34,184 bases of DNA. Source: Anaerolineae bacterium (GTDB taxonomy: Bacteria > Chloroflexota > Anaerolineae > B4-G1 > SLSP01). This document shows positions 6,501 through 30,049 of the stretch, piece after piece. The position numbers and the translations under genes are program-made. The notes below the pieces were generated by a model. It was not told the DNA's origin and did not search any database. It saw only the letters and a list, made by a program, of their open reading frames with translations. The stretch spans positions 20,221 through 54,404 of the forward strand of contig JALXBP010000084.1 in the NCBI GenBank assembly GCA_026991395.1. Reading direction: 5' to 3'. The first letter of the stretch is position 1. The number at the start of each line of letters is the position of its first letter.

Positions 6501-8926
6501 TGCAGCGGTGCAGCGCCACTGTTGCAATGAAGCTGCACGTGCAGATGCAGCGTCGCCGTCGTCGCCGAGGTGAAGGCGTCGCCGTAGAACCAGTGGTAAC
6601 CGGAGGCATTGGCCGTGGTGTAGAGCGGCGTAACACCGCTGAAATCGAAAGCCGAGAGGACGGCATAGGTATCGGTTACCAGGTCCAGGCGGACGTCATA
6701 GGCCCCCACATCGGAGGTGCGCTCGATATCGATCGCCACGGTGTACTCGCTGCAGGCTTCCACCTGCGCCGGAATGTCGCGCACGGTAACCTCCATCTCC
6801 GGGGCGAGGCTGCCCATCGTGACACCTTCCTCGAAGCGGGGGCTTGCCGCACAGGGGCCGTTGCCGGTTACGCCCAGATCGAGGTAGGACCAATCGTAGA
6901 AGCTCGCATTGGAGCACATCGAAGGCTGCGTAATGGCCGTCCGGTAGGTAATCACCATCGTCGAGCCGGGCACGGTGATCGAGCATGTCGGCGAAATCTG
7001 CGTCAGGACGAGTTGATCATCGATCAGAGCCTCGACGTAAGTGGCCGGACAGCTCGTTGCCCCATCGCTGACCATGATCCCCGTCGAGTGGCTGATGTAA
7101 TGCTGGTAGTTGAGTGTCTCGGTGAAGACCATCCCTTGCCAGGTCGGCGTAACCGTCAGCGAGGTGAAGGTATAGGTATTCACGACCGTGTAGGCCGGAT
7201 TGGCGCAGTTGGGTGCGGCCTGCGGGTCCGCCCCCTTGCTCGAGCCGACAACCGAATCGCCGCATTGGATATGCGTCGTCGCCGAGGCCGTCGCCACCTG
7301 GCGACAGTCCTGACAGTCGGCCCCCGTCGCCGTGACGACGTTCGTCGCCGCCGTTCCGCACAGCGAGCAGCCGGAAACAACCGGGGTTCCGAAGACCGGC
7401 TCCAATGTCGTGGCGGCGGAGACCAGCCACGTAATGTAGCTCCGCGTCCCAATGGTGAAGACGGAGCCGCCGTCGGCATCCCGGACGAACCACCCCTCGG
7501 GCACGGCATCGGTGACGAGTGCCGAACCGGCAACGCCTGCCGGATCGATGTTGATCGTCGCCGTTACATCCTGACCGAGATAGATCTCCTCCGGCATCGA
7601 CTTGGAGAGCGAGAGGTTCGGCGGCGTTGCGATCAGATGCCATGGCGCAAATTGCGGAGCATTCGTGTAATAGTGATGACACCGATCCTCGTATGTCATA
7701 TCGAACCGGAACATTCCGGTCGGTGAACCGGAAAGCGTGCACATATTCGCGGGAAGCGTCAGGGTGAAGACGAGATCGAAGGTCTCGCCGGCAGGAATCG
7801 GCGGCAGATGGAAAGCGCCGCCCGTGTAGGTTACGTTGGGGGCAGGCGTGACGACGAAAGGCGTAAAGTCCACGGTGTAAGTGCCGCTGTAGGCCGTCGC
7901 CGTCCCATCGTTCGTAATCGGCACGGTGAAGACTTGGGAGCCCGTACAATAGGGGACATCGAAACTGCTCGGCAAAGGTGTTAGCAGCGTGGGAACCGTG
8001 GGGATGAGGTCCACGGCCCCCTTGGCCGTCTGCGGGAGGAGACAGGAGCCGGAGCCACAGCCCCACGTCGCCGTAACCACATTCTCCAGCTCGGAGCAGC
8101 CCACAACACGCGCAGCAATATCGAAGGAGCGTGTCTCACCCACGGGAATGGAGACGTAGCTCGTCGAGGTGAGACCGCTGACATACTCCAGGCCGTTGCC
8201 CAATACATCGCTCACAACGACATTGGAGACCCGACCATAGCCCGTATTCTCGACCGTTATCGTCCACGTTACCACATCATCGAGATGAGCAGGAATAACG
8301 GCGGGCTCCTTGCGGATGGTGATCGCGCCGGGCTGTACCGCAAAATCGGTGTACACGTAGATAGGCGGAGCCCCATCCTGCGTTACCGTTACCAGATTCT
8401 GCCCCGAAACGGCGGAACAGGTCGCCTCGTACACGGCCTCCAGCTCGACGACCTCGTTGGGAGCCATCGTGCCCACATCGAAGGTGCGCACCGTCGGCTC
8501 GAAGCCGACCGGCATCGTGCTGGTCACGAAAACCCCCGTCGCCGTCGAACCATCATTGGTCAGCCGAATGGTGAAGGTAACCGTATCACAGTTTTCGATC
8601 TGTGTTGGCCCCTCCACCTGCACACCCGTCCCGTCATCGGTGATGAGGCGCTGCGGAGCCAGGAGCCTGCGCGGCTCTACCGACCGAGAGCGCATACAGG
8701 GCGAAACCGCCTCCTGCGCGGAGGCCGGCGCATCACGATGGAAGCTCTCTTTCGCTGCCGCGCTTTTCACCGCGCCGGATAGCGCCGCAGGGGCGATCCC
8801 TCCGTCATACCAGCTCGGTAAAACCTGCGAAACCCCCGCGGCCTCGACAGAGGCAACGGGGAAGGGGATGATTCCGATCAGTAAGGAGATCAGCGCCCAG
8901 ATACTGAAAAGCCTACGTTTGTTCAT
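1..8926 (-). CDS. Giant secreted surface protein: DUF11 repeats, concanavalin-like domain, SdrD B-like repeats (C-terminus beyond window)
   Basis: Likely an extracellular adhesin or surface-layer-like fibre. The start ATG at 8926 follows AAGGAGG. The N-terminus (MNKRRLFSIWALISLL...) is a signal peptide of about 30 residues. From about residue 100 there are many DUF11-type repeats (for example VTFTIRLTNDGSTATGV and VTWTITVENTGYG), some with Cys pairs. Residues about 1712-1852 form a concanavalin/LamG-like domain (RYFGLYFRYVDDHHWYRFQW). After more DUF11 units, at least six SdrD B-like modules begin near residues 2254, 2391, 2508, 2665, 2805 and 2958, each with a G(N/D)xxWxD core and DxNxDG loops. 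The start codon and the repeats at the left edge are in the same frame. No ATG-started minus-strand ORF is listed in that frame, as expected if it is open throughout; I did not translate every codon. The ORF track omits it, probably because it lacks a stop in the window. Cell anchoring cannot be seen. Confidence 0.88.
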   Translation of the reverse strand, partial: MNKRRLFSIWALISLLIGIIPFPVASVEAAGVSQVLPSWYDGGIAPAALSGAVKSAAAKESFHRDAPASAQEAVSPCMRSRSVEPRRLLAPQRLITDDGTGVQVEGPTQIENCDTVTFTIRLTNDGSTATGVFVTSTMPVGFEPTVRTFDVGTMAPNEVVELEAVYEATCSAVSGQNLVTVTQDGAPPIYVYTDFAVQPGAITIRKEPAVIPAHLDDVVTWTITVENTGYGRVSNVVVSDVLGNGLEYVSGLTSTSYVSIPVGETRSFDIAARVVGCSELENVVTATWGCGSGSCLLPQTAKGAVDLIPTVPTLLTPLPSSFDVPYCTGSQVFTVPITNDGTATAYSGTYTVDFTPFVVTPAPNVTYTGGAFHLPPIPAGETFDLVFTLTLPANMCTLSGSPTGMFRFDMTYEDRCHHYYTNAPQFAPWHLIATPPNLSLSKSMPEEIYLGQDVTATINIDPAGVAGSALVTDAVPEGWFVRDADGGSVFTIGTRSYITWLVSAATTLEPVFGTPVVSGCSLCGTAATNVVTATGADCQDCRQVATASATTHIQCGDSVVGSSKGADPQAAPNCANPAYTVVNTYTFTSLTVTPTWQGMVFTETLNYQHYISHSTGIMVSDGATSCPATYVEALIDDQLVLTQISPTCSITVPGSTMVITYRTAITQPSMCSNASFYDWSYLDLGVTGNGPCAASPRFEEGVTMGSLAPEMEVTVRDIPAQVEACSEYTVAIDIERTSDVGAYDVRLDLVTDTYAVLSAFDFSGVTPLYTTANASGYHWFYGDAFTSATTATLHLHVQLHCNSGAAPLQTTLYYENACGDNGVTGEQCSVSDSGGSPLTLAPYMFLTKFPEVIYAQDDVVTWTLTAINGGAGAARNVVLSDVLGSGLRYLTSTMTSTLGSAAGAAPIVNGQTTRWEDLTILSGEMYTIKFTAQIVSCEDLTNIYSATRGCLGENCCSVGPERSHVELPPTILINTNQMLTPIDSCYSRTVTITLKNAGLLSVYSATVTETLPTGLAYIPASTEVSTDTVHWQPGPDPTISGQTLVWDPSSGPPLGEWLSRISPSGIVYIRFDVVPSCPFEGGQLVVHTSYRDVCRGVYLTDASHFILPVRQPDLTIVKTGVNIDRTPPLTEIVYGEPGEYVNWTITATNAGNAAPASVVVVTDTLPPNVTFVDATPGYVQSGQLITWTFGPLAAGASRVLTISTRIVQPNGCTELDMQNEVEGAWGCPNGCRHLVEGDAVVLRTRPVFGDPLVTPDMPALSFHRCGGLITVTLENAGPPAYGVIFTDTLPAGYVYSETVYVSTPPSGTTDLGQTVVYTWMVLPSGRTTITFRARNDTPAGTCALPGGPNIAVVQYDDDVPDCSLTGPYVATSTTALNIIGPDLVVAKLPHAQTTDVGERVTWTVRITNTGTGAAYNVVVTDVAGNTYSALQATNGSDGAVPTVSGNTVIWHPATIPAGGTWTAQVSAIHGATGNNANVVTATTGCDSGCTNNQVDDVAYATLLARFEKNPEVQTGTIGSLTVFTFDVALSDYDNLYASTVLTDALPDGLGYVASALTMTVDGDGNSGGPTTTHPTPSSTPAYLGTGNVVWSLGDLPGTVRISGVLTAVIRDVESNYGGAQQVNHLEMSYVDDGQTYLYTDTAKVRIVAPLLHIGKSYVTPPGCNATLLHEDFNDGVADGWTLLPPAPWSIIGDPAAPAQAAVLFENTTGLVRALAGEGSWSDYSFSAMVRVPEDGERYFGLYFRYVDDHHWYRFQWRNNTPRMRLQKRDGATYPVLAQRFDMTYVPGEWYHIEVRAVGNHLQAFVNGELVLEAYDPDFYPRGRVGFYTYQMADVAFDNALVTRMDEMGCVVGADDLVTYTFPITIASRWPYSQTGMTAYDLVVTDTIADGLSFVTSSIASDDAASVVTAEPTPGDEDELVWHINRLGFPPSGDSGTLMMTVVLRVSSGITANVFLPSRVKLAYDAWPGHSEPTTITRRYSGGSHSTALRTVDGGIAKVMNFAPPPTATLGTLVTYTLIVPRAPIRATMYDVVVTDTVDSRLRIKSVTTAGGTGAAASWSGQSLTATFASIPHDTQAFVTVTARISHEWPSADADANAGDLITNTASMTHATASVVTTSNEVSNTVGEPNVHIAKEGRVTDDPQTAIYTLTVTNDGDAIAYSLLITDVLPDGLTAIGASAGGTIAPDGRVVTWTLASLDVGGIAIFTCTARLDRAIYTDDLFTNTAIVHNTSLTDTVIGVRPYITEDEQMLTWPLGRLGDYVWYDLDDDGLQGSVAGEFGLGGVVIDLFNGQTGAYITSTTTDATGRYLFEHLPLGVTYTVRISSVSYMAGGPLAEFTQTLYQAAAATAATDSDAAITQTFGGAPYAITTTLTTAFTEDLTLDYGFVRLVEVGNYLWFDENNDGVQNDGAANGVAGVTLTLTYPDGRIFTTTTDANGYYTFTVPVSQAYTITVLEENFAPGGPLEAYTQTLTDAGSDDALDSDGLIITTPIITDDNYTFDIGFVDLVALGNRVWYDTDDSGQVDAGEVGVDGVAVELYRDTNEDGSYTPGVDELVSTTTTANGGYYTFTRLYPSLAPNLAYLVVITESNFAAGGVLEGYANSTATYGGNSDVNDVDHGVVVGTLGGGGYVASTPVSVTGGDEPTGDGDGDANTNLTIDFGFYRLSVGNRVWYDVNDNGEEDAGEGGAGGLTVRLVDGSGAVIATTTTDAQGYYTFTGLVSGEGYAVEVEVPAAYTSSTDLASSGDPGNNIDGDDNGVRWAGTAIRSAVFTPTAGSGGAQGNNTVEGSQGWTHDPTVDFGLVALVALGNRVWYDTDDSGQVDAGEVGIDGVAVELYEDTNGDGSYTAGVDELVSTTVTADGGYYTFTRLLPARGYVVVITGSNFTAGGVLEGYANSTATYGGNSDVNDVDHGAVNGDLGAGGYVASSVVTLTVGGEPTGDGDGDANTNLTIDFGFYRLSVGNRVWYDVNDNGEEDAG
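880..1414 (-). repeat. SdrD B-like two-module super-repeat, copy 1
   Basis: This is the partner of the repeat at 1-523. The shared ends are the CACCGGCATCC start and the CTAACGCTACCAG end on the plus strand. The offset grows from 879 to 891 because of a 12-base insertion around 1190-1220, which still keeps frame. Confidence 0.85.
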
Positions 8927-9272
8927 CGTGCTTGGCCTCCTTCCGCCACCAGGCGGTGGAAAAGACAAACTCTCCTGCGAGAACCAGGATGACGGCAAGT
9001 ACGGCCACAGGCGCGTGGCCTCCTGAGACGGGTAAGAGAGGTTCAGGCGAAACGGGGGTCCCGACCACCGGGGTCGCCGACGCGGGGGGTGGCGGCGGTG
9101 TCGGCGTCGTCGGTATCGGCGTCGGCGTTGGCGTCATCGTTGGCGACGGCGTCGGTGTCGGCGTAAAACCGGCCATGGCGGGAGCGACGCCGTATCCAGG
9201 CCAGATCACAGCCAAGGTTATGGCCACGATCAGCAGGCTCGCCACACCCCACGATAAATGCCCCTTCTTCAT
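8913..9272 (-). CDS. Small Thr/Pro-stalk membrane protein with LPxTG-like C-terminal anchor
   Basis: 119 residues. I chose the ATG at 9272 because AGGAGG lies six bases upstream; the longer listed ORF (from 9440) and the ATG at 9287 lack this. The N-terminus (MKKGHLSWGVASLLIVAITLAV) is a signal peptide or anchor, followed by a TPTPTPSP-type low-complexity stalk. The C-terminus reads LLPVSGG, a hydrophobic segment (VAVLAVILVLAGEFVF) and a charged tail (RKEAKHDEQ), the layout of a sortase sorting signal with Ser in place of Thr. The TAG stop at 8913-8915 lies inside the next gene: the giant protein's ATG overlaps it by 14 bases, so the two are probably translationally coupled. Function is unknown; it may be a wall-anchored partner of the giant protein. 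Confidence 0.75.
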   Translation of the reverse strand: MKKGHLSWGVASLLIVAITLAVIWPGYGVAPAMAGFTPTPTPSPTMTPTPTPIPTTPTPPPPPASATPVVGTPVSPEPLLPVSGGHAPVAVLAVILVLAGEFVFSTAWWRKEAKHDEQT

Positions 9273-9373: not shown

Positions 9374-9673
9374 GATTAAATGGGTAACTTCTAACTAAGG
9401 CAAGACCATTTTTCATAAACTTGTTACCTTTCGTTGACAATTACCCCCTCGCCGCGAGAGGCAAGCACAACTCGCCCATCCCGACGCCACACGGCATCAG
9501 AACAGGCTCACGCGGCACAAGGGTAGAGTGAGGTGCCCGGTCAACAACAGGACAAGAGGATGCCCCCGAAGCACATTGCGGATGCCCTTCCTGCACCTAT
9601 TGGTCGGCACAAAGCCCGAAATCCTGCGCTGCAGCAAGCCTTGCGTGCAAAGAGATTGGCCGAGAGGGAGACG
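9374..9673. other. Intergenic stretch without recognised gene
   Basis: Between the surface-protein promoter and the terminator at 9674 I see no convincing gene on either strand. The listed plus ORFs here (9528 and 9533) are shadows of the minus-strand gene at 9722-10861. The stretch contains a short CTCG-CCG-CGAG palindrome near 9450 of unknown meaning. Confidence 0.5.
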
Positions 9674-12960: not shown

Positions 12961-15555
12961 ATGGACATTCTCGATCTACCGATATTGACAGAGGAACAAC
13001 TCCGTGCCCAATTCAGCGAGAACGCGCTCACCGTCCTGCGAAGGCGCTACCTGCGCCGCAACGAGAAAGGCGAACCGGCGGAGACGATCTCGGAGATGTT
13101 CCGTCGCGTCGCCCGCCACGTCGCCCAGGCGGAAGCGGAGATGGGGGGCGATCCGCACGACGCCGAGGAGCGTTTCTACCGCCTGCTGACCTACCTGCGC
13201 TTCATCCCCAACTCGCCGACGTTCACCGGTGCGGGCACGCCGCTGGGACAGCTCGCCGCCTGCTTCGTTCTCCCCATCAAAGACGATATGGGCCGCATCG
13301 AGGGAGGCATCTTCCAGACGCTGCGCGATGCCGCCCTCATCCAGCAAACCGGCGGCGGTAACGGCTTCTCCTTCTCGCGCCTGCGCCCCAAGGACACCCT
13401 CGTCAAGAGCAGTATGGGGAAAGCGACGGGGCCGCTCGGCTTCCTGCACGTGTACGATGTCGCCTTCGGCGAGATCGCCCAGGGGGGGACACGTCGCGGA
13501 GCCAATATGGGCGTCCTGCGCATCGACCACCCCGACATCGAAAGTTTCATCACCAGCAAGACCGACGAGAACGCCATCACCAACTTCAACATCTCCGTGG
13601 GGATGCTCGATGCCTTTATGGAGGCGGTGGAGAAGGACGAGATGTGGCCGCTCCGCTTTCCCGATGTTCTCCATCCCAAATACCGCACCTTCCACGGCAC
13701 TTTGGAGGATGCAGAGGAGGCCGGCATCCCCATCAAGACCTACCGCAAAGTCCGCGCCCGCGAGCTTTTCCAGAAGATCGTCCACCAGGCATGGCGCAAC
13801 GGCGAACCGGGCATGCTCTTCCTCGACACCGCCAACCGCGACAACCCCGTCCCGCACCTGGGACGCTACGAAAGCACCAATCCCTGCGGGGAGCAGTTCC
13901 TCCTCCCCTACGAAAGCTGCTGCCTCGGCTCCATCAACCTCGCCCGCCACCTCGCCCACACGGAGGACGGTCGCCCCACCGTCGATTGGGCCAAGCTGGC
14001 CGAATCCGTCCATCTGGCCGTGCGCTTCCTCGACGACGTCGTGGAGGCCAACGGGTACGTGCCCGCCGTCCCGCAACTGAAGGAAGCCGCCCAGCGCTCG
14101 CGCCGCATCGGGCTGGGGATCATGGGGCTGGCCGATCTCCTCTTCCATATGCGCATCCCCTACGGCAGCGAGGAGGGACAGGAGATCGCCGCGCAGTTGA
14201 TGGAATTCATCCGCTACGAGGCGATGCTGGCGAGCATCGACCTTGCCTCCCGGCGCGGTCCCTTCGCCACCATCAAAGGCAGCGTCTACGATCCGGAGAA
14301 CGTTACGTGGAGACCGCCCGCCTGGCCCGAATGGCTCGGCGGCAAGCCTCGCCACGACTGGGGACGCCCGCCCATCCACTGGGAGCGCGTCCTGGAGGGA
14401 CTGCGCCAACACGGCATCCGCAACGCGGCCCAACTGACCATCGCCCCCACGGGGACGATCGCCACCGTCGCCGGAGCCGAGGGCTACGGCTGCGAGCCAG
14501 TCTTCGCTCTGGCCTACACGCGCAACGTCCACGAGGCCGATCGCATCATCCCGCTGCGCTACGTCAGCAAGGCCTTCACCCGCGCCCTGGAAGAGACCGA
14601 CCTCGATGAAGCGACCAGGGAGGCCATCTTCGAGCAAGTCGCCCTCACCGGCAGTTGTCAGCAGGTCGAGGAGGTGCCGGAAGCCATCCGCCGCGTCTTC
14701 GTCGTCGCCTCCGACGTCCCCGCCGAAGGGCACGTCCGCATGCAGGCGGCCCTCCAGATTTTCGTCGATGCGTCCATCTCCAAGACGATCAACTTCCCCG
14801 CCGATGCGACGGAAGAGGATGTTGCCAATGCCTTCAAACTTGCCTGGAAGCTGGGCTGCAAGGGGCTGACCGTCTACGTGGCCGGTTCCCGTGAACACGA
14901 GGTACTGGAGACGGAGGCGACGCGCAAGGCGAAGAACGGCGAAGCTCCGGCCCCATCTGACGAGGCCGCAGGAGAGACAACGGAGGAGGAACCTTGCACG
15001 CCGCCGAAGCTCAAGCCGTGGGAAGGCCCCACCATTCGGCCCCGCCCACCACGGCTCGTGGGGCGCACATACCGCATGCCGACCCCCGTCGGTGCGGCCT
15101 TCATCACCATCAACAGCAACGGGCACGACCAACCCTTCGAGGTCTTCATCAACGTCGCCAAGGCCGGCTCGGAGACGGCGGCGATGGCCGAAGCCATCGG
15201 CAGGCTCATCTCCCTCGTCCTGCGGCTCCCCTCCGCGATGGAGCCGATCGACCGGCTGGAGGAAGTTACGGCCCAGCTACGCGGCATCGGCGGCGGGCGG
15301 CCCTTAGGCTTCGGGCACAACCGCGTCCTCAGCCTCCCCGACGGCGTCGCCCGCGCCATCCAAACCTACCTGGAGGAATACGAGGCCGCCGATGAAGACG
15401 AGGACGAGGAGGAGCCCCCCGCCTTCGAGGAGCCGCCCGTCGTGCAACAGGCACTCTTCCCCACCGGCGATCTCTGCCCCGTCTGCGGCCAGCCGACGAT
15501 GGTCTACACCGAAGGATGTCGTCGCTGCTACAGTTGCGGTCACAGCGAATGCTAA
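12961..15555 (+). CDS. nrdJ: Adenosylcobalamin-dependent (class II) ribonucleoside-diphosphate reductase
   Basis: 864 residues; the ATG follows AAAGGAGG. It reduces ribonucleotides to deoxyribonucleotides using a radical from adenosylcobalamin, so it works with or without oxygen. C101 (QLAACFVLP) is one of the redox pair. NPCGEQ at residues 307-312 holds the thiyl-radical cysteine C309 with N307 and E311. [18 protein letters not shown] and [12 protein letters not shown] are further active-site signatures. The C-terminal third has the class II TSCR-like domain ([24 protein letters not shown]), a Glu/Asp-rich linker and a zinc ribbon (C839PVC ... [12 protein letters not shown]) thought to regenerate the active-site cysteines. 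No separate small subunit is present. The preceding NrdR is its probable repressor. I see no cobalamin riboswitch in the short leader. Confidence 0.96.
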
Positions 15556-15667: not shown

Positions 15668-16279
15668 TCACGGATATTGTACAGCTATGTAAGCCATCTG
15701 CCGTAATTGGATTACCCATATTTCAAACAATGCAACACCGGAAGGCAATTGAGGCTGGCTCGCCCAATCTATCGGTCGCGCTTGTGCTGCCATCCCGATG
15801 GAGCGAGCAATACTCCTAACATGTTTAGCAGTTGTAGCATTGCGATGCGCAAAGAAGTTTCGCATTCGGCGTAAGTCATCCACCGGTGATGGTGTCATGC
15901 CGAGTCCTCCGCTGACATTTAGAAAATTCGTGATACTGAGTCTTTGGGCTGCACTGATACTCTCATTGGCATCCGCCCAACGAGGTTCACGCCTACCCCC
16001 TTTACGGGTTTTGATCTTAGCCCTACTAATAGCATCACCCCTTGAGCGAATATCTGGTGCTTTAGGGACAATCACGCCGTTAATTGAATAGGGACGAGCA
16101 TAACTTGAAATAATAATCAGTTCCCTACAAAATCTCGCCCAAGCGTCATGCAATCTTATCACACTCATTTCCCTCGCTTGCACGGGGCAGATTGCACTAT
16201 GCGCATTGTTAAAGCAATGTAGCAATACCGCCGTTTCCATGACGAAACGGCGATACAGTTTTCCCAAGTCTTTCAGCAT
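15668..16279 (-). CDS. HEPN-type protein (putative ribonuclease), partner of the DUF262 protein
   Basis: 203 residues. The best visible motif is RNFFAH at R140-H145 (DDLRRMRNFFAHRN), the Rx4H signature of HEPN RNases, in a mostly helical protein. HEPN proteins are common in toxin-antitoxin and abortive-infection systems, where they cut RNA. The ATG at 16279 is only three bases after the stop of the DUF262 gene (TGA AGA ATG), so the two are cotranscribed and probably act together. The middle part (residues about 80-105) is rich in Arg/Lys. The exact HEPN family is not recognised. Base composition is AT-richer than the neighbouring housekeeping genes, suggesting transfer. Confidence 0.6.
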   Translation of the reverse strand: MLKDLGKLYRRFVMETAVLLHCFNNAHSAICPVQAREMSVIRLHDAWARFCRELIIISSYARPYSINGVIVPKAPDIRSRGDAISRAKIKTRKGGRREPRWADANESISAAQRLSITNFLNVSGGLGMTPSPVDDLRRMRNFFAHRNATTAKHVRSIARSIGMAAQARPIDWASQPQLPSGVALFEIWVIQLRQMAYIAVQYP

Positions 16280-16282
16280 TCT

Positions 16283-17356
16283 TCACAACCGCTGTGGCAA
16301 TAATGCTCGAAAATAAACAGGGAAGCGCTTTCGACGGCTGGCAATACGCTGGGTAGTACCTGACGACGCCATCCAGAACTCTTTCAAATATGCTTCCGAA
16401 GGGGGCTCATCACTCTCCAATATTTGTGACAAGTAGCCTAGATTCTCTATCACCATAGAAATATTGCTGAGAGCGTGAGAACTCCTCGCCGGCATCCTCT
16501 CACCCATTTTCCCTTGGGGAATACCAAACAAGGCATGAGCAACTGCGGCATATAACATCAAGAAATGCGGAGATCTGCTAATTGGGCCATCAAGAGCTAA
16601 GGAAAGATTCCGTACAATAAATTCTATAACCTCATTAACTTTCAAGATCGTTTCTTCCTTGTTGGGGAAATCTTTATCATATTTAACGTACAGCTTTCTG
16701 ATATTGCGTTGTCCCCCATCAGTAACCCCTTCCAAAATCACTCCAAACATTTCTGCCATTAACGAATCGTCCAACATCCTCACACGTTGGCGCATAGAGA
16801 GAATCGAAAATCTTTCCCATAAGTCCTTACCCCATTGCATAGATGTATCATGCACCGCCCATTTGAAATCACCCTGAAATTCCGCATGGCGCAACTCAGC
16901 ATCGTTAAGTCGCACGTTATATGAATTCAATCGTGAGAATATTTCTAATACCTCCTCATCTGACGCATTGATTAGAAGTTCAACTGCCACAGTGTAGGAT
17001 AAAAAATGCTCTTGGATATCTTCCGAGAGAGTACTGTATCTATACCCTCTAAACTCCTTAGCTCTGCTTCCCAAGATCAGCTTGTCATCGGCAAACTCAA
17101 TAATTGCACGCAACCTCTGCTGCCCATCTACCACTTCACGGTATGATTTCTTAGTTCTCAAATCAATGCGAGAACGTATGTAGATTTTAGGTATGGGGTA
17201 ATTTCTTAGAATAGTATCTATCAGGTAAGACTTAGCAGCTTGCGTCCACACACTCCGGCGCTGAAAATCAGGATTTAGCTTAAGCTGTTTTTTTCTATGC
17301 CATTCAAGGAAGTCCGCAATAGTATATTGCTGAAGGTTTGATGTGGCCATTTTCAT
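16283..17356 (-). CDS. DUF262 domain protein (ParB/GmrSD-N-like)
   Basis: 357 residues. The N-terminal half is a typical DUF262 domain: LNPDFQRRSVW at residues 27-37, LIDTILRNYPIPKIYI, and VVDGQQRLRAI at 75-85 carrying the DGQQR motif. DUF262 is related to the ParB/Srx NTPase-nuclease fold and forms the N-terminal domain of GmrSD-type modification-dependent restriction enzymes. The GmrD-like HNH domain is not visible in the C-terminal half, so the effector may be the HEPN protein encoded three bases downstream. ATGs occur at 17356 and 17350; AAGAGG upstream suits either. It starts 33 bases after an attC-like GTTAGAC end, so with the HEPN gene it would form one cassette. Defence against phage or plasmids is an inference. 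Confidence 0.85.
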   Translation of the reverse strand: MKMATSNLQQYTIADFLEWHRKKQLKLNPDFQRRSVWTQAAKSYLIDTILRNYPIPKIYIRSRIDLRTKKSYREVVDGQQRLRAIIEFADDKLILGSRAKEFRGYRYSTLSEDIQEHFLSYTVAVELLINASDEEVLEIFSRLNSYNVRLNDAELRHAEFQGDFKWAVHDTSMQWGKDLWERFSILSMRQRVRMLDDSLMAEMFGVILEGVTDGGQRNIRKLYVKYDKDFPNKEETILKVNEVIEFIVRNLSLALDGPISRSPHFLMLYAAVAHALFGIPQGKMGERMPARSSHALSNISMVIENLGYLSQILESDEPPSEAYLKEFWMASSGTTQRIASRRKRFPVYFRALLPQRL

Positions 17357-17384
17357 GCACCTCTTGAAATCCGATTTCTCAAAA

Positions 17385-17525
17385 GCCTGTCTAACAACAA
17401 CGTCAGTGAAGCTGCAACGCTACCACGGACATTATTGGCGACATATCTTTCTCGCAGGAGCCCCACTAGACTCACGAGAAGTACATCCGCCGGATGCAAG
17501 ACTAGACATTTTCTGCAGCTTTGCC
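17385..17525 (-). repeat. attC-like spacer between the phosphoribosyltransferase and DUF262 genes
   Basis: The minus strand ends with GTTAGAC (17395-17389), which fits the integron R' rule GTTRRRY. The plus-strand sequence at 17385-17412 (GCCTGTCTAACAACAACGTC...) matches the site at 29926-29953 in 22 of 28 bases. Internal palindromes are present (CATCCG-G-CGGATG and TTCTCG ... CGAGAA). A clear R'' (RYYYAAC) after the phosphoribosyltransferase stop is not seen, so the left arm is degenerate or absent. Confidence 0.45.
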
Positions 17526-18122
17526 CTAATTGGGCTTGCGCGAATCTCGAACATAGCCATATCCCTTGTACATCCAAGGCATACGGAAATCCCCGGTAAT
17601 CTCTTTACCAAAATAATCTGGGCGATATGCAGAGGTAACCCCCTTTACAAAGCAAGCCGTCCGTATCTCTTGAGGATTTACTTGCTCAATTTCATGGAGA
17701 AAGAATTTCATTGTTCCTCCAGTAAGAACATCGCCAGCCACTAATAGTACCTTTTTCCCTCTGAGTGGGGCAAAGTCGATCATTCTGTTTTCCACTTCTA
17801 TCCGTTCCCCATCATGCCATTCATACATTCGATCCACACCTAGTAAGGGAATATTTCGCATCTTGTCCGGTACCCGTAAGTTTCCTGACAATAAGGCCCC
17901 AAGGATTGAACCACCTCGACCAATTCCCACAATCACGTCTGGAACAAACATATCACTGCTCATCTGGGAGATTAATTTCTTCACCAATTTATCCACCTCC
18001 GCCCAGCTAAAACTCCGCAGGTTAAGCCACACCTCTGCCGTTTTATACAAAGTGGCTAAAAAGCCAACAAATGCCAACGCATAACTCGCAATGTCGAAAA
18101 GGTTTTTTACATCCATTGTCAT
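17526..18122 (-). CDS. Membrane-anchored phosphoribosyltransferase-domain protein
   Basis: 198 residues. One N-terminal transmembrane helix (IASYALAFVGFLATLY, about residues 11-26) is followed by a type I phosphoribosyltransferase fold: GIGRGGSILG at 67-76 and the PRPP loop LLVAGDVLTGGT at 126-137. The substrate is unknown; the hood region is not like a known purine or pyrimidine enzyme. Its ATG overlaps the stop of the histidine phosphatase gene (ATGA), so the two are translationally coupled and probably act on related metabolites. A membrane-tethered phosphoribosyltransferase beside a phosphatase, DUF262 and HEPN genes suggests a nucleotide-related defence or signalling role rather than housekeeping salvage (inference). 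It is AT-rich compared with the flanks. Confidence 0.8.
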   Translation of the reverse strand: MTMDVKNLFDIASYALAFVGFLATLYKTAEVWLNLRSFSWAEVDKLVKKLISQMSSDMFVPDVIVGIGRGGSILGALLSGNLRVPDKMRNIPLLGVDRMYEWHDGERIEVENRMIDFAPLRGKKVLLVAGDVLTGGTMKFFLHEIEQVNPQEIRTACFVKGVTSAYRPDYFGKEITGDFRMPWMYKGYGYVRDSRKPN

Positions 18123-18718
18123 CGCCCCACCAAAAACCCTAACTCCATATTGAGAGATTGCAGTTGTAAGTCACCCTCTTCCTTGAATAATAGTGTTGTC
18201 ACGCTGCAATTTGAACAAGGTAATAAACGGAACTTATTCAAGTCAAGTCCAAGAACTTGAGCAACTATTAGTCGGATAGTTGTGCGGTGAGAAACGCAAG
18301 CAACACTGCGAACTGATGTTTTCTGAGCAATAAACAGTATTTCATCATATACCTCCAATGCATGTTTCCGTATGCTTTTACCACCTGGGAAAGTCACCTC
18401 CCCTGGTGCAGTATGCCAACGCCGCATCACCTCATCGTCATATGTACGGGGTACTCCCTCATAATTTCCATAATCGAATTCAATTAATCCTTCAGTTATA
18501 ATTATCTCATGTTGTGGGAAAATAATCTTTGCGCTCTCAAGTGCACGGGACAATGGACTCGCAAACACTGCTTCTACAGGGAATTTAGAGAAAAATTCTC
18601 TAAGTCGATAGCATTGTTCCCTTCCAGTCTGAGATAAAGGAACATCACTCACTCCAGAAAGCAGATTTTTTTGGTTCTGCACACTTTCACCATGCCTAAT
18701 CAAATAAAGGCGCTTCAT
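18119..18718 (-). CDS. Histidine phosphatase superfamily protein, island 1
   Basis: 199 residues from the ATG at 18718; the ORF track starts one codon earlier at a TTG. GGGGG lies nine bases upstream. It has the superfamily signature LIRHGES with catalytic H9, the arginine-containing VFASPLSRALESA, the acid residue region GLIEFDYGNYEG (as in CobC/GpmB-like phosphatases) and the second catalytic histidine in VSHRTT (H144). It would transfer phosphate from a small molecule to H9. It is the first gene behind the island 1 promoter and overlaps the phosphoribosyltransferase gene by four bases. A distant relative occurs in island 2 (29306-29878). The substrate is unknown. Confidence 0.85.
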   Translation of the reverse strand: MKRLYLIRHGESVQNQKNLLSGVSDVPLSQTGREQCYRLREFFSKFPVEAVFASPLSRALESAKIIFPQHEIIITEGLIEFDYGNYEGVPRTYDDEVMRRWHTAPGEVTFPGGKSIRKHALEVYDEILFIAQKTSVRSVACVSHRTTIRLIVAQVLGLDLNKFRLLPCSNCSVTTLLFKEEGDLQLQSLNMELGFLVGR

Positions 18719-18814
18719 CAAATCTTACCCCCGAAATGAATACAGAGAAACCCATACTAGTGCGACGCGTAAGCACCAAGCACCAGAGCGTCACGGATAC
18801 ACACAGAGGCCCAT

Positions 18815-18975
18815 TCCATTATGCAGCATAACTTCTACATAACGCCTTCCCCTTTGAAACCATATGCGACTCCTCCCTTGCCCTTGAAACATCCCGGCTA
18901 CACCTCCATCACCGATGATCCTTCATTACCCTACGCTTCAAGCAAAATATATCCTATCTTGAGAATAGTGTCAAG
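18815..18975 (-). repeat. Island 1 leader, homologous to the island 2 leader
   Basis: Three blocks match the leader at 30907-31021 in the same order. 18933-18975 matches 30979-31021 (37 of 43). The GTTTCAA block near 18884-18897 matches the GTTTCGAA block near 30932-30946. 18815-18832 matches 30907-30924 (15 of 18). The spacing between blocks differs. I see no gene in 18722-18975 on either strand; the listed 65-residue plus ORF has no support. Confidence 0.75.
18946..18974 (-). promoter_or_regulatory. Sigma-70 promoter of accessory island 1
   Basis: On the minus strand TTGACA (18974-18969), a 17-base spacer, TATATT (18951-18946). It is about 230 bases upstream of the first gene, leaving a long leader. 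It is nearly identical to the island 2 promoter. Confidence 0.8.
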
Positions 18976-19160: not shown

Positions 19161-19637
19161 TCATCTCACCTCGAGGATGCGGAATCGGAGCACGCCTATC
19201 GGCGCGTGGTATTCGACGATCTCCCCTTCGCGATGACCGAGGAGCGCTTTGCCCAACGGCGATTCGTAGGAGATCTTCCCCTTGCTCGGCTCGGCCTCCG
19301 TCGGGCCGACGATGACGTACTCCTCGACCTCGCTCTCGTCCATCCCCTCCTCCAGCAGCCGGACACGCGACCCCATATCGATGCGGCCGTTGCCCCGTGG
19401 CTTGCGGATGATCTGCGCATTGCGGATCATCGCCTGCAACTGCTGGATGCGGCCTTCGAGGAAGCCCTGCTCCTCCTTCGCCGCGATGTAGTCCGCGTTC
19501 TCGGAAAGATCGCCCTGCTTGATGGCCGCATGCAGCCGCCTGGCCAGCGCCGGGCGCTTGACGTTGATCAGTTCATCCAGTTCGGCCTTCAGGGCCTCCA
19601 AGCCCTCCTCGGTCAGATAGACAGGCTTGTCGTTCAT
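19161..19637 (-). CDS. greA: Transcription elongation factor GreA
   Basis: 158 residues from the ATG at 19637, which follows GGAGGAGGTGAAG; the longer listed ORF runs back through the promoter. GreA enters the RNA polymerase secondary channel and stimulates cleavage of backtracked RNA. The N-terminal coiled coil carries the acidic tip KQGDLSENADY (D43, E46). The C-terminal FKBP-like domain includes GSRVRLLE, ISYESPLGKALLG and the terminal FRILEV. Length matches the family (about 157). It is a single gene with its own promoter, divergent from the site-2 protease operon. Confidence 0.96.
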   Translation of the reverse strand: MNDKPVYLTEEGLEALKAELDELINVKRPALARRLHAAIKQGDLSENADYIAAKEEQGFLEGRIQQLQAMIRNAQIIRKPRGNGRIDMGSRVRLLEEGMDESEVEEYVIVGPTEAEPSKGKISYESPLGKALLGHREGEIVEYHAPIGVLRFRILEVR

Positions 19638-19664
19638 CTTCACCTCCTCCGCTATTGCTGGCCT

Positions 19665-19692
19665 ATTGTAACACGGATGAGATGCGGGACAA
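19665..19692 (-). promoter_or_regulatory. Promoter of greA
   Basis: On the minus strand TTGTCC (19692-19687), a 16-base spacer and TACAAT (19670-19665), about 30 bases upstream of the start codon. Confidence 0.65.
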
Positions 19693-19747
19693 TCCTCGTT
19701 GCCCGCGCCGGGTACAGGAACGGCCTTCCCGCCTCCAGCGTCCATAG

Positions 19748-19753
19748 TATAAT
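19748..19753 (+). promoter_or_regulatory. Probable -10 box of the site-2 protease operon
   Basis: A perfect TATAAT about 90 bases upstream of the GTG start. No good -35 is visible at 16-18 bases, so this is weakly supported. Confidence 0.4.
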
Positions 19754-19841
19754 GACGCCGACGGCGAATCGTCACGTCGTATATCCAGGCAACGAAGGCG
19801 GTTGGCCGGGCCAACCGCTCGCTCGAACAAGGGAGGTCTGC

Positions 19842-23269: not shown

Positions 23270-25150
23270 GTGGCCGCCAGGCAGCGCCGCCGCACCTTCG
23301 CGCCGCTCATCCTCATCCTCTGGGGAGCGATGGTGCTCCGCTTCTACCACCTGGGCTTGCAGTCGTTCTGGAACGACGAGGGCAACGCGGCCCGCCTGGC
23401 GGAGCGGAGCCTCGCCCTCATCGTCAAGGGGGCGGCGATGGACATCCACCCTCCCGGCTACTACCTCCTGCTCCACTTCTGGCAACTCGGCGCGGGGAGG
23501 ACAGAGTTCGCGCTGCGGGCCTTTTCCGCGCTGTGCAGTCTGCTCACCGTGGCCGTCGTCGCCGCGCTGGGGCGCAGCGTGGGCGGGCGGCGCGCAGTTG
23601 CGACCGCGGCGATCCTGATGGCTTGGCACCCGCTGGCCGTGTACTACGCGCAGGAGGCGCGAATGTACGCGCTGCTCGGTCTCCTGGCCGCGCTGACGCT
23701 CTGGGCGGGAGAGCGCCTCCGCTCGCGAGGCGACCGCTCCACGGCGGTGATGCTGGCCGCGCTGCTGACCGCGGGGCTTTACACGCACTACGCCTACCTC
23801 TTCGCGATAGCGGCGCTGAACGGCGCGGCCATCATCGAGGCCCTGCGGCGCAGCACGAGGCGGCCCTTCCCCCGCCGCCTCTGGCTCGCCGCGAACGGCT
23901 TCGCCGCGCTGGCCTTCCTCCCCTGGCTGCCCCACCTGCGCAAGCTGACCACGTGGAAGCCGCCCGACCTGGCCCAGACCGGGGCCTTCACCCACCTGTG
24001 GACGGCGCTCCTCGTCGGCACCACGCATCCCGCGCCGCCCGCGTGGCTCCTTTGGCCTGCCCTGGCGCTCCTCCTCTGGGGCACAGTGCGCGGGATGGGC
24101 CGACGGCCCTTCCTGACCACGGCGGCGCTCCTCCTCGTCCTCCTGCCGCCGCTCCTCTTCCTCGCCACCGGAAGCTACCGCCCGGCCTACCTGAAGTTCC
24201 TGCTCGTCTCGCTCCCCGCGCTGACGGTACTCATCGCCGCCGCGACGGCGGTCAGGACGAGGTGGGCATCGTGGCTCGCCTGCCTCCTCCTGGTCGCGCT
24301 GTTCATCCCCCAAGAGACGGCGCTGGACCATCTCTATCACGACCCCGCCTATCGCCGCACCGACTACCGCGGCATAGCCGCCCTCATCGCCGCCGAGGGA
24401 CGGCCCGGCGATGCCGTCGTGTTGGACGCGCCCAATCAGTGGGAGGTCTTCACCTACTACTACCGCGGCCCGCTGGAGGTCTTCCCCGCGCCCTACCACC
24501 CAGATCCGGCGGAGGCGCAGGCTTGGCTCGCCACGCTCCTCGACGGGCATGAGCGGCTCTTCGTCCTCTACTGGGGAGAGCGGGAGGCCGATCCCCAAGG
24601 CTACATCGAGCGCGGCCTGGCCGAGCGGAGCTACAAGGCGGGGGAAAGCTGGATCGGCGAGGTGCGCCTGGCCCGCTACGGCGTCGCGCCGCTGCCGGAG
24701 GAGCCGACCCGTCCGCTGGAGGCGACCTTCGGCTCCGCCATCCGCCTGGAGGGCACGGCCATCGGCGGCGAATGCTTCCGCGGCGGGGAGATCATCCCCA
24801 TCTCCCTCTTCTGGCGGGCGACGGCGAAACCGGCGACACGCTACAAGCTCTTCGTCCACCTCCTGGACGCGGCGGGGAACCTCGTCGCCCAGTACGACGG
24901 CGAACCGGTCGGCGGCTTCCGACCGACGGATGGCTGGGAGCCGGAGGAGCGTCTCATCGATCGCTGCGGCCTTCTCCTCCCCGCCTCGCTCCCCCCCGGA
25001 CGGTACCGTCTGCGCCTGGGCCTCTACGACGCCGCGGGGACACGGCTCCCCGTCCGCAGCGGGGGTGAGGTGGACGACGGCGTGCTATTCGCGACTTTGG
25101 AGCTTCCCTGTCACGACGCCCAGGGGGTGAGCAGCCGAGCCGGGCAGTGA
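23270..25150 (+). CDS. GT39/PMT-like membrane glycosyltransferase
   Basis: 626 residues from GTG at 23270 (AAAGGGAG upstream, eight bases after the previous stop). It is polytopic, with about ten to twelve transmembrane segments in residues 10-350. The first loop carries FWNDEGNAARLAE and DIHPPGYYLLLHFW, the acidic and PPGY motifs of polyprenyl-phosphate-sugar-dependent glycosyltransferases (GT39/GT83/ArnT-like). It would glycosylate protein or lipid on the outer face. The C-terminal 200 residues form a beta-rich extracellular domain. The last residues and the stop codon are encoded by the first 23 bases of a repeat shared with 27648-27696, so the original C-terminus has probably been altered by an insertion or recombination event. 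Confidence 0.87.
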   Translation: MAARQRRRTFAPLILILWGAMVLRFYHLGLQSFWNDEGNAARLAERSLALIVKGAAMDIHPPGYYLLLHFWQLGAGRTEFALRAFSALCSLLTVAVVAALGRSVGGRRAVATAAILMAWHPLAVYYAQEARMYALLGLLAALTLWAGERLRSRGDRSTAVMLAALLTAGLYTHYAYLFAIAALNGAAIIEALRRSTRRPFPRRLWLAANGFAALAFLPWLPHLRKLTTWKPPDLAQTGAFTHLWTALLVGTTHPAPPAWLLWPALALLLWGTVRGMGRRPFLTTAALLLVLLPPLLFLATGSYRPAYLKFLLVSLPALTVLIAAATAVRTRWASWLACLLLVALFIPQETALDHLYHDPAYRRTDYRGIAALIAAEGRPGDAVVLDAPNQWEVFTYYYRGPLEVFPAPYHPDPAEAQAWLATLLDGHERLFVLYWGEREADPQGYIERGLAERSYKAGESWIGEVRLARYGVAPLPEEPTRPLEATFGSAIRLEGTAIGGECFRGGEIIPISLFWRATAKPATRYKLFVHLLDAAGNLVAQYDGEPVGGFRPTDGWEPEERLIDRCGLLLPASLPPGRYRLRLGLYDAAGTRLPVRSGGEVDDGVLFATLELPCHDAQGVSSRAGQ

Positions 25151-25176
25151 GCGGAGCGAAGGTGTTGGCTCAAGGG
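25128..25176 (-). repeat. Cassette-border repeat A
   Basis: It matches 27648-27696 in 44 of 49 bases, in direct orientation. Copies A and B flank the metalloprotease gene. Copy A supplies the end of the GT39 coding sequence and lacks the GTTGG end seen in copy B. Confidence 0.8.
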
Positions 25177-25266
25177 AAGAGCAGCGTGTCGGCTGGAAGC
25201 GCTTGTCGGGCAACGCTCTCGACTACACGAGCCAAGCATATCGCAGCGTACTACCTTTAAAACGAA

Positions 25267-27615
25267 TCACCTGGTAATCATGGGCAAGTAATTCTTATAT
25301 TGATATATCGAAGGCTTGGCACACCAGTCGAATTCGACAAAATCAAAATCGGCCTGAAGTGGGTTATCCTGCCATTCGTTTATCAGGTGAACACCAGCAT
25401 AGAGAGTATTGGCCGCGCTGAAATGAACATCCCCTACTTGGATCCAATCCGTACCAGTCCGACTATACCAAGCAGTGAAGCTGTTGTTATCTCGCTCGAA
25501 TCTGAGATACACATCAGAAGCAGAAAGTATAATATCTCCACTATCTGTATATGTACCACTAACACGATAAATAAACCGCAGATGCCCACCAGTCTTGAGT
25601 TCTAGCCTGATATAGTTATTTTCGTCTTGCCAGATGAGAAGGCCAGCACCCTGGTATTCATCAGGCACGGGCACAATTCTTACATGGGTTTGAACAACAA
25701 ACCTCCTTCCTACCGGCTGCAAGAGACGAGGAGCATTTAGATTGAGAAACAGATCGTGGCCACTGCCCGGAGTCATTAAGCGCAAGTAACCGGGATTCGC
25801 GGTCAGGCTGTAAGTGGAATCGGCCAACGGATCGACCCACAACCATCGCAAGTCAAGCATGGAAGTGTTGAAAAGATCGCAAAAGCCCGGCGGGAAAAAG
25901 TCGCTATCCCACAAGGTAACATACACTATATCGTCTTTCTCAAAAGTCTCTGCCCAAAGGTTGGCTCGACGATTGACATAGTTGAAGGTCAAGTTTAACC
26001 CTATTCGTCGACCATGCTGCAGAATCAGTCCAGTTTGGGAATTGTACGGAATGGCTATTTGGACAAGGTAGCCACTGCCGTAACTACGTGCATATCGACC
26101 AATGTCTGACTCCGTAATAAGTCTTCCAAACGGGTAGTTAGGGTCATCATCCCACATCGGATAGCCCTTGGTGGCAATGATGGTTTCACTGCTATCCCAA
26201 ATATGTGCCTTGCCTATAATCAAAGGGGCAGTTGGGTCTGAATAACTTGGGTCTATGTTGATCTCATAGTTATCTTTGCCGTGAAACCATCCATCAGCGT
26301 TGGCGTCAATCATAAGATGTATTTCCGCAAACCTATCAACCTGTATCATCAGGTAGAGATAGTTGCTATCCCAGTTGGCGTATACTGTGGAGGAAAAAGG
26401 CGCGTTTGCAGCATTGACACCGCTAATGAGTATATCCCAACCGGCAGGGTCCCCATTGAGCGGCAAGGTCTTCTCTGACATCTGTGTATTGATGCGATAC
26501 AGAGGTTCAAAATCATTGCCGTCCAAAGCTTTATCCCCATCTGTATCAGGAGCAGTCAGATCGGCGTTTCTGAAAAAACCCGCAATACTCTCTTCGAGAT
26601 CTCCATATCCATCTCCATCTGTATCAACAAGAGCTGTTGAACTTCCAAGGGACTGTTCCGTGATGGGCAGAGATGGATTTTGGTCTGGGACACCATCTCC
26701 GTCCGCATCAGGAGCCTGGATAATATCTCCCCAAGGAGGACGTAACACGAGCCAATTATCGGCTGGCCAGATTTTCATTCCATAGGCCCAAAAACTCCAG
26801 TTTTCCCCAAATGCACCTTCCAAATCCCAAGGGCGATCTGGAAAGAAATACTCAGGGTAGCCGCTGTTTTCCAGCATAAAGTCAATAGTATGCTGAATCT
26901 CGTGGGGAAACGCAGTAGAAAATACCTCTGCTCCAGACGGCTGAAATATCGGAATCTCTGTTATGCCGGTGAGACCCAGTTGCCAATAGATGCCCCCACC
27001 CAAGCCTCCATAGGCCGCTGGCAATGAGCCGTTGTTATGTGCCCATAGGTAATTGATGCTATCAAACTGATCCCTCTCGACTCCTCGATTCAACAGATCA
27101 GATTCAACAGATACGCCATCCCCATCATCATCAGTAGGATTCAACCAGTAGCCGCCATTCTGGTGTTGCGTGAACTCAGATGAGTCTTTATAATCATCGA
27201 TAATCATAAAAGTTAGATTAATATAGAATTTAAAATGAGACTGCCGCCAAATGAATCTGGCCGTGTTTGCAACATGCTGTTGAAGGAGATCAATATCACT
27301 TGAGCTTAATGTGCCAGCAGCCGTATTAGGATAAATTACGATAAGAGTGTCGAGCTCAGTGTATGCCGTCGTGCCAGAGGCTGCCTGGTAAGCAGACTGT
27401 GGAACCTGCAAGGGAGGAAATAAATAGGGGTTTCGAATTTCGATATAGCCTTGAGGTTGATCTATGGGAGCGTCAAATACCGCATAGATGTAGGGCGATC
27501 CTGCATTTGGCAGGTTATTTACGCTCGAAGTTGGCGTAACCTGCAAGCCAGTGAATAAGACTAATGCAAAAACTATTCGAAGATATTTGTGACTAAACAT
27601 TCTGATACTCCTCAT
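25267..27615 (-). CDS. Secreted HExxH metalloprotease-like protein with Ca-binding repeats, CBM9-like and concanavalin-like domains
   Basis: 782 residues. The signal peptide is near residues 5-25 (YLRIVFALVLFTGL); the ATG follows GAGGAG. The N-terminal 330 residues include FPHEIQHTID with the zinc motif H238EIQH242. Thrombospondin-3/EF-like calcium repeats follow (DADGDGVPDQNP, DTDGDGYGDLEE, DTDGDKALDGND). Residues about 400-560 look like a CBM9/DOMON-type domain (ANWDSNYLYLMIQVD, NYEINIDP). The last 200 residues are concanavalin-like (DUF1349 type: YQGAGLLIWQDENNYIRLEL, FTAWYSRTGTDWIQVG). The end NYLPMITR resembles the YLPLxxR tail common on secreted Chloroflexota proteins (from memory). It has no close operon partner, is AT-richer than the flanks, and lies between direct repeats A and B. 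Confidence 0.85.
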   Translation of the reverse strand: MRSIRMFSHKYLRIVFALVLFTGLQVTPTSSVNNLPNAGSPYIYAVFDAPIDQPQGYIEIRNPYLFPPLQVPQSAYQAASGTTAYTELDTLIVIYPNTAAGTLSSSDIDLLQQHVANTARFIWRQSHFKFYINLTFMIIDDYKDSSEFTQHQNGGYWLNPTDDDGDGVSVESDLLNRGVERDQFDSINYLWAHNNGSLPAAYGGLGGGIYWQLGLTGITEIPIFQPSGAEVFSTAFPHEIQHTIDFMLENSGYPEYFFPDRPWDLEGAFGENWSFWAYGMKIWPADNWLVLRPPWGDIIQAPDADGDGVPDQNPSLPITEQSLGSSTALVDTDGDGYGDLEESIAGFFRNADLTAPDTDGDKALDGNDFEPLYRINTQMSEKTLPLNGDPAGWDILISGVNAANAPFSSTVYANWDSNYLYLMIQVDRFAEIHLMIDANADGWFHGKDNYEINIDPSYSDPTAPLIIGKAHIWDSSETIIATKGYPMWDDDPNYPFGRLITESDIGRYARSYGSGYLVQIAIPYNSQTGLILQHGRRIGLNLTFNYVNRRANLWAETFEKDDIVYVTLWDSDFFPPGFCDLFNTSMLDLRWLWVDPLADSTYSLTANPGYLRLMTPGSGHDLFLNLNAPRLLQPVGRRFVVQTHVRIVPVPDEYQGAGLLIWQDENNYIRLELKTGGHLRFIYRVSGTYTDSGDIILSASDVYLRFERDNNSFTAWYSRTGTDWIQVGDVHFSAANTLYAGVHLINEWQDNPLQADFDFVEFDWCAKPSIYQYKNYLPMITR

Positions 27616-27625
27616 CTGCAGCGAT

Positions 27626-27696
27626 AAGCCACCAACGAAGCGGCGGATGAGCAGCCGGGCCGGGCAGTGAGCGGAGCGAAGGGGGTGACTTAAGGG
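27626..27696 (-). repeat. Cassette-border repeat B
   Basis: Its first 57 bases are related to repeat C at 30757-30812 (both read AAGCCACC..AAC then GCGGCGGATGAGC on the plus strand) and its last 49 to repeat A. On the minus strand it ends in GTTGGTG 15 bases before the metalloprotease ATG. It looks like a degenerate member of the attC-like family; I do not see a good complementary left arm. Confidence 0.6.
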
Positions 27697-27723
27697 TCTG
27701 CACCCGTACTGCGCGTCAGCCCA

Positions 27724-27936
27724 CTATGGACGGTTGGTTCCGCCACCAATACGGCTGCCCATCTCTCTTCCCCGCTCCCTGCCCGCTATCCAAATCGGAT
27801 ACCGCGCATTAGCACCCCGCGTTACCCGCTGCACCTTCCCCGTCGCCACCTCAGCCAGCCAGATGTCCGGCACGCCTCCCGCATCCGTGCTGAACGCCAG
27901 CCACTTAGAAGGTGTAGTGCTTCGCCGAATACACAA
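27724..27936 (-). pseudogene. Fragment of a TolB/PD40 beta-propeller protein
   Basis: The 70-codon frame contains about 40 residues of one and a half PD40 blades (KWLAFSTDAGGVPDIWLAEV then GKVQRVTRGANARYPIW). After YPIW the expected SPDG is lost and the frame continues into unrelated Arg/Gly-rich sequence. There is no ribosome-binding site. I read it as a relic of a larger gene, carried or truncated when the island formed. Confidence 0.55.
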
Positions 27937-27945
27937 ACCCTCGGC

Positions 27946-29280
27946 TTATTCCCCAAAGCGCCGGAGGAGTTGGTAGATAGCATTTGCGCCAAAACCGATT
28001 GCTTCAACGGGAATGCGTTCATCTACACCATGGATCACCTGGATGAAATCGAAATCTCTTGGAAGCTGCATCGGCACAAAACCGTAAGTTTGAATCCCCA
28101 AGCGAGCGAAGAAGCGCGCATCGGTAACCCCGCTCATCAAAAAAGGAACTGGAATCCCATCGGGATCGGCCTGACGCAAAATATCAGCCAGCAAATCAAA
28201 GAGGCCCATATCCGGTTCAGCCGGGCCGGGATCATAACGTATGACTTCGATCTCGACATCGTGGCCGACAATGCCGGTTAACTCCGAGATCAAGTCATCG
28301 GGGCTATAACCGGGAAGCAGCCGCCCATCGAGTCCAATAGACACTTCGCCTGGTATGACATTGATTTTGGAGCTTCCGTGCAGGACGGTCGGACTTACCG
28401 TGTTGTGCAAAAGGGGATCAAATGGACGGCTATGTTCCCCCATTGCATCCAGCACCATGTTCGTGAATAGTGGGTTCGTCAATTGACCGAGAACGAGTTT
28501 CTTCACTCCCCCACTTGCCGATGCCACGGCATCGAACATGAGCCGCGCGGCTGGTGTGATATGCACCGGCAGACGATTCTCATCCAACAGCCGAAGGACC
28601 TGAGACAACTTCGCCATCGCTCCTCCACGGACGGGTATTGCCCCGTGTCCACCAGTACCGCGCACTGTCATGTTCAGCCAGCACAATTGTTTCTCCGCAA
28701 TCATAATAGGGTAGAAACGTTGTTTGCCAACATAGAAGGTAAATCCACCGAATTCTCCTATGGCATATTTGATTCCTTCGAACACTTTGGGGTGATTCTC
28801 GACCAGATACCTCGAACCAAAATCGCTGCCTGCCTCCTCGTCGCTGACAATCGCAAGGACTACATCTCCGGGCAATTTCAAGGCATCCCCTTTTGCCCGC
28901 AAAAAGGCAGCCAGCATCATGGCTACTCCGCCCTTCATATCAAGAGCACCACGTCCCCACACAAATCCATCGCTCACTTCACCGGCAAACGGGGGATGCT
29001 GCCATGGCTGATTCTCCGTTGTCACAACGTCTATGTGTCCGTATAGCAATAACGGAGGTGCGTTGCCCATCCCCGGCAATCGTGCGATCAAATTGGGGCG
29101 CTCAGGCGTTTTGCCGAGAATGGTCGTTTTGATCCCGGCTTCGGCCAGCAGGCCGTTGATAAAGGAGATGCATTCAGCCTCGTTGCCAGGCGGATTGGTG
29201 GTATCGAATCGGATAAGGCGCTGGAGCAGCTCTGCGGGGCGCTCATAGATGGCCGACCGGTTGCGTTTATTAGATGTCAA
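27946..29280 (-). CDS. M20-family metallopeptidase (ArgE/DapE/carboxypeptidase-like)
   Basis: 444 residues from a TTG start at 29280, well supported by AAAGGAGG eight bases upstream. It is a cytoplasmic di-zinc amidohydrolase. Metal and catalytic residues are visible: GHIDVV (H82, D84), GALDMKGG (D114), SDEEAGSD (E148/E149) and the late histidine in VIHGVDERIP. The dimerisation domain includes GTGGHGAIPVRGG. The exact substrate (N-acyl amino acid or dipeptide) cannot be told. It lies 25 bases after the second histidine phosphatase gene, so the two form one unit, probably a single cassette downstream of the attC-like site at 29930. Composition is nearer to the chromosome than that of the Abi_C gene. 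Confidence 0.9.
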   Translation of the reverse strand: MTSNKRNRSAIYERPAELLQRLIRFDTTNPPGNEAECISFINGLLAEAGIKTTILGKTPERPNLIARLPGMGNAPPLLLYGHIDVVTTENQPWQHPPFAGEVSDGFVWGRGALDMKGGVAMMLAAFLRAKGDALKLPGDVVLAIVSDEEAGSDFGSRYLVENHPKVFEGIKYAIGEFGGFTFYVGKQRFYPIMIAEKQLCWLNMTVRGTGGHGAIPVRGGAMAKLSQVLRLLDENRLPVHITPAARLMFDAVASASGGVKKLVLGQLTNPLFTNMVLDAMGEHSRPFDPLLHNTVSPTVLHGSSKINVIPGEVSIGLDGRLLPGYSPDDLISELTGIVGHDVEIEVIRYDPGPAEPDMGLFDLLADILRQADPDGIPVPFLMSGVTDARFFARLGIQTYGFVPMQLPRDFDFIQVIHGVDERIPVEAIGFGANAIYQLLRRFGE

Positions 29281-29305
29281 GGCAACAGCCTCCTTTTTCC
29301 CTCTA

Positions 29306-30038: not shown

Positions 30039-30049
30039 GACATCGTTTT

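Follow-up and report, generated by a model that had tools for sequence, protein, structure and literature searches.

The usual description of an integron has one attI site next to one integrase gene, intI. Two reports (PMC9024848, PMC8618304) also define the CALIN, a group of clustered attC sites without an integron-integrase, and CALINs at several loci are described for Xanthomonas in a third (PMC12444791). Here, we analyzed 34,184 nucleotides from an Anaerolineae bacterium (the window, meaning this whole stretch of DNA), in which two islands of accessory genes, called island 1 and island 2, are headed by the same promoter element. With a probability of roughly 85%, this element is the Pc promoter of an integron platform (Pc, a leader of some 210 nt and attI) that is dispersed over at least eight intergenic places, where every copy stands at the head of accessory genes of its own and no assembled one adjoins an integrase gene.

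The initial annotation of the window had matched positions 18933-18975 to 30979-31021, and the match was borne out: 37 of 43 bases are identical (86%; E=1.8e-7 in the whole-genome search and 8e-11 in the pairwise comparison) and TTGACA-17-TATATT is present in both. In the island 1 Pc element (18933-18975, minus strand), the -35 hexamer TTGACA (18974-18969) and the -10 hexamer TATATT (18951-18946) are separated by a 17-bp spacer; in the island 2 element (30979-31021, minus strand), the same hexamers lie at 31020-31015 and 30997-30992, again with a 17-bp spacer. Downstream of both elements the block GCCGRGAYGTTTCRA and then, at a palindrome, the block AGTTRTGCTGCRTMATGGA follow in conserved order, as seen in the sequence and in alignments. 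These two further blocks had been noted before, as had the exclusively minus-strand accessory genes behind both elements and the non-coding nature of the leaders, in neither of which we see a gene; all of this was confirmed.

The platforms were counted by sequence searches, and their number is to be read as at least eight. In the 2.46-Mb genome the exact element has three occurrences, and it was absent from all 23 other genomes of the family that were searched; the third occurrence lies on contig C93, near genes for tRNA-Arg and tRNA-Val. Relaxing the search, and searching with the longer module, recovered five further related copies (two on C45, one each on C50, C133 and C102), which gives eight platform copies, some of them truncated, two in the window and six on five other contigs. 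Downstream of all eight lie accessory genes, and downstream of none a core gene; nameable products include GmrSD_N restriction-like, AbiJ-like Abi_C, PIN, CHAT and VRR-nuclease proteins and an NTPase. The genes on the other side of the platforms are ordinary ones, greA and tRNA genes among them, and include no integrase. The initial annotation had named an occurrence before many core genes as the sign of a merely common strong promoter; this is not the case, and such a promoter was rejected, the element being found solely at platforms in the genome and family searches. Directly behind the C93 platform (L010:1974-2386, minus strand) there is an apparent broken, frame-shifted methyltransferase gene, named by reading and with no match in Pfam. 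Two further candidates were discarded: the sole match in a contig search, from Bathyarchaeota (L019), is due to chance (the leader is not shared and the match appears inside coding sequence), and a match on C144 to the promoter of the relative G035 is unrelated and precedes a LacI-like regulator. A pattern scan of viral contigs for the element gave no match. G022, which belongs to another genus of the same family, carries two platforms of the same kind.

The module has three parts, namely a sigma-70-like promoter (Pc), a non-coding leader that carries a conserved palindrome, and an attI core (CCTAATTATAAG^TTAGGC). When the copies are aligned, the shared sequence spans about 210 nt between the -35 hexamer and the attI core CCTAATTATA[AC]G^TTAG, and about 10 additional bases before the -35 hexamer are common to C50 and C102. 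Hexamers of the type TTGAC[AG]-17-TATA precede the leaders, and from the sequence Pc is predicted to read into the array. The full core TAATTATA[AC]GTTAG is present in four copies (two on C45, and those on C50 and C133), where it stands at the head of the array with the core G^TTRRRY, as an attI does. The core spacing would be the same in attI1 of class 1 integrons, CCTAA-6-GTTAGGC. When the attI 14-mer was searched in 396 genomes of the class, four occurrences were found here, two in G022, and otherwise at most one per genome, a frequency close to that of the reversed control. On C93 and on C102 the copy is truncated and stops short of attI. The island 1 leader (18722-18945, minus strand) keeps the palindrome (about 18815-18843) and aligns as far as this point; beyond it attI is absent, with no recognizable core. 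The island 2 leader (30887-30991, minus strand) contains the palindrome ATGCGGCA-GTTG-TGCTGCGT and matches the C50 leader at 79% over 52 nt (E=1.3e-4), and its attI core GCCTACAG^TTAGGC (30873-30886, minus strand) is 5 bases shorter than in the intact CCTAATTATA[AC]GTTAG copies. The window copies are old, with no attI in island 1 and a shortened one in island 2, so that both most likely now serve only as promoters for the resident accessory genes.

The palindrome, TTATGCAGCA-GTTG-TGCTGYGTAA, stands about 50 nt ahead of attI and is retained in most copies (e.g. L102, about 9620-9660, minus strand; in the window at 18815-18843 and about 30900-30930) as well as in G022; it may be an accessory integrase-binding site. 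A structured leader RNA was considered and rejected: 88% of cells show pairing at the palindrome, with no two-sided changes and at a level no better than in shuffles, so that covariation gives no support, and an Rfam search found nothing.

The two platforms on C45, called C45A and C45B, are identical at 196 of 197 bases up to the attI sequence GTTAG, and at 20 of 60 thereafter. Similarity that ends precisely at the attI crossover is what the entry of different cassettes into an already copied platform would produce, and this order of events, copying and then insertion at the crossover, is the simplest reading of this pair. That copies this similar carry different first cassettes implies that an integrase was active fairly recently, and contig C45 stops inside platform A, leaving its upstream side unassembled; both points favor one complete, intI-bearing integron that is missing from the draft assembly, for instance upstream of C45A, with the other copies as its satellites. 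No contig carries intI, however, despite a stated completeness of 100%: the best match to TIGR02249 in the assembly reached 84.7 bits against a cut-off of 265, and the matches are Xer-like. G022 likewise has no intI above the cut-off. We rate a missing integron as a serious possibility, at slightly under even odds.

The weak Xer-like profile matches lie on C97, on C102 (about 15 kb from the platform) and on C105, and the profile search found no intI fragment beside any platform, and no platform has an adjacent intI in the assembled sequence, which does not cover the upstream side of C45A. True intI genes, scoring 430-508 bits, are present in 9 of 48 genomes of the order, and these relatives follow the same plan: divergent intI, Pc, leader, attI and cassettes. 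The leader of one of them, G035, is single-copy in its own genome. Ordinary decay, in which acquisition or duplication placed several complete integrons (intI, attI and array) at different loci and deletion of intI from each of them left Pc-attI-CALIN remnants, would agree with the presence of intI-bearing integrons in the family and order, with the decayed state of some attI sites here and with intI loss as one accepted origin of CALINs (PMC8618304). It would, however, require many independent clean deletions, none of which left an intI fragment, and the platforms cease to resemble one another at the -35 hexamer or just before it, with the expected place of intI beyond that point. On balance we find decay rather unlikely.

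To locate attC sites, we used a model, R1, built from five attC sites of intI-bearing relatives that belong to another family of the order; it is independent of the window, and its E-values are rough. A separate custom attC finder run on the window alone found 1 site against 0.8 expected in shuffles, which is not significant, and the attC calls therefore rest on R1. In the whole genome, R1 gave seven matches (E=1.1e-8 to 0.014), on C45, C50 and C81, and since C81 continues C45 through an exact overlap of 127 bases, all seven lie in platform-headed arrays. An attC site matched by R1 on C102 likewise belongs to a platform-headed array. In total, attC sites are found downstream of five platforms (island 2 and four others), all in array direction, and the arrays on C45, C50 and C81 show the mark of a CALIN, at least two clustered attC sites with no neighboring intI. 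Island 2 has one strong and one weak site, and the evidence for attC is weak or absent at island 1, C93, C133 and the G022 loci, with no convincing attC near the platforms of the latter. The C102 array also encodes a cassette protein of 375 aa (L127:2690-3817) with a near-identical internal repeat, broken by an N run in the assembly.

A strong, regulated promoter without any tie to integrons, which was duplicated or came in together with accessory genes, would account for the peak of similarity in the promoter and for the four of eight copies in which attI is missing or altered (both window copies, C93 and C102). The module, however, runs for about 210 nt to the attI core, its homology ends at the crossover, and arrays of attC sites lie downstream, which contradicts such a promoter for C45A, C45B and C50; we regard it as very improbable, conceivable as the present-day role of the island 1 copy.

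The integron-like layout of island 2 can be followed along the minus strand. Its first cassette, which contains no ORF, spans 30768-30878 with R' cut points as boundaries, and a similar unit is found on C45, C50 and C102. The site attC1 (30762-30850; R'' GCCTGAC, R' GTTGGGT) is the best R1 match of the window (30.5 bits, E=4.4e-5). It is followed by a cassette at 29936-30767 with the 5' end TTGGGT and an Abi_C/AbiJ-like gene at 30050-30745 (Pfam, PADLOC), whose R'' ACCCAAC pairs 7/7 with the R' GTTGGGT at its own 5' end (preceding G included), a trait of integron cassettes. The site attC2 (29930-30038; R'' ACCCAAC, R' GTTAGGC) came from a strict fold search and ranks second by R1, with E=0.56; other matches in the window, presumably due to chance, begin at E=0.66. 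The remainder of the island (25180-29935) encodes a histidine phosphatase (29306-29878), an M20 peptidase (27946-29280) and a GH43_C2-domain protein (25267-27615), and degenerate attC-like repeats lie in this region at 25125-25176 and 27645-27696. The core flank is a gene for a baeRF-family protein (31131-32351, plus strand), divergent from the platform. The tandem of ORF-less cassette and attC recurs in very similar form in several arrays (window 30768-30878; L101 about 6263-6430; L102 about 8885-9060; L127 about 3945-4057), sometimes behind a second short palindrome, GTTAAGCC...GGCTTAAC.

The accessory genes of island 1 (15668-18721, minus strand) encode a histidine phosphatase (18119-18721), a phosphoribosyltransferase (17526-18122), a GmrSD_N protein (16283-17356) and a protein of unknown function (15668-16279), according to Pfam and PADLOC. 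R1 listed no attC site here, so that island 1 alone lacks the two attC sites of a CALIN; a degenerate attC-like site seen by eye (17389-17535, minus strand; R' GTTAGAC 17389-17395), which is not among the model matches, is tentative. The core flanks, both identified with Pfam, are ribonucleotide reductase (12961-15555, plus strand) and GreA (19161-19814, minus strand). These two genes are convergent and 17-256 bp apart in six genomes of the same family (G011, G012, G014, G017, G018, G021), and 3.6 kb apart here. As the flanks are direct neighbors in all six, island 1 is either an insertion into a conserved gene order or a loss common to all six, and insertion is the simpler account of this gene order. 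The G+C content is 45-51% in the islands and 64-68% in the core. A histidine-phosphatase gene is present in both window islands (18119-18721 and 29306-29878), and the two proteins are distantly related (28% over 132 aa).

In the mechanism that we propose for the dispersed platform, cassettes would have been inserted at attI, through attC x attI recombination, by an IntI that worked in trans and is now lost or absent from the assembly; Pc would transcribe the inserted cassettes, and copies of the platform, alone or together with its array, would have reached new loci. As the assembly contains no integrase gene, recombination is inferred from its footprints only, and any present-day landing activity is hypothetical. 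The duplicated promoter with an attI-like landing site proposed in the initial annotation is supported by the module, the attC sites, the crossover break and the empty site at island 1, and on a larger scale, with eight copies; it needs correcting in that both window copies are worn, island 1 having lost its attI and island 2 having a shortened one, and in that no integrase was found. A stronger version, a distributed integron in which the Pc-leader-attI module is itself mobile or actively multiplied and seeds, at new intergenic loci, several independent and separately expressed arrays per chromosome, all served by one integrase in trans, is put forward tentatively, as clearly short of an even chance. 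If the platform reading is true, a genome with eight Pc-attI heads but no integrase nearby, together with a module of the same kind in a second genus, would show that a landing site is separable from its recombinase and can increase in number; more than one cassette at a time could then be first in line for expression, and some CALINs would gain a testable origin.

CALINs, CALINs at multiple loci and a second attI in a prophage are already known, and what appears new is the large number of Pc-leader-attI heads lacking intI. We found no paper on many such modules without intI in a literature search covering a minority of subscription papers, which does not prove novelty. The module shares with the chromosomal integron (intI, Pc, attI and array; relatives G035, G036, G039, G041, G042 and G012) the 17-bp spacing of Pc, a non-coding leader, an attI core ending in G^TTRGGC and attC sites in one orientation, but there are eight Pc-attI modules here instead of one, and none adjoins intI. 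Cassettes outside the primary integron and attI pieces moving with cassettes are also known from attG insertions and delta-attI-type cassettes (PMC12901181); there, however, the attG sites are not attI copies and the delta-attI piece lies downstream of a gene inside a mobile-integron array. A prophage with a second attI resembles the platforms in that an attI heads an array without its own integrase, but in that case two attI sites and a complete integron share the same prophage, whereas here eight platforms occur and no integrase was found. With CALINs the loci have in common attC arrays that lie apart from intI at several chromosomal sites; here, in contrast, each array is headed by the same Pc-leader-attI module, a feature that the CALIN descriptions consulted do not give.
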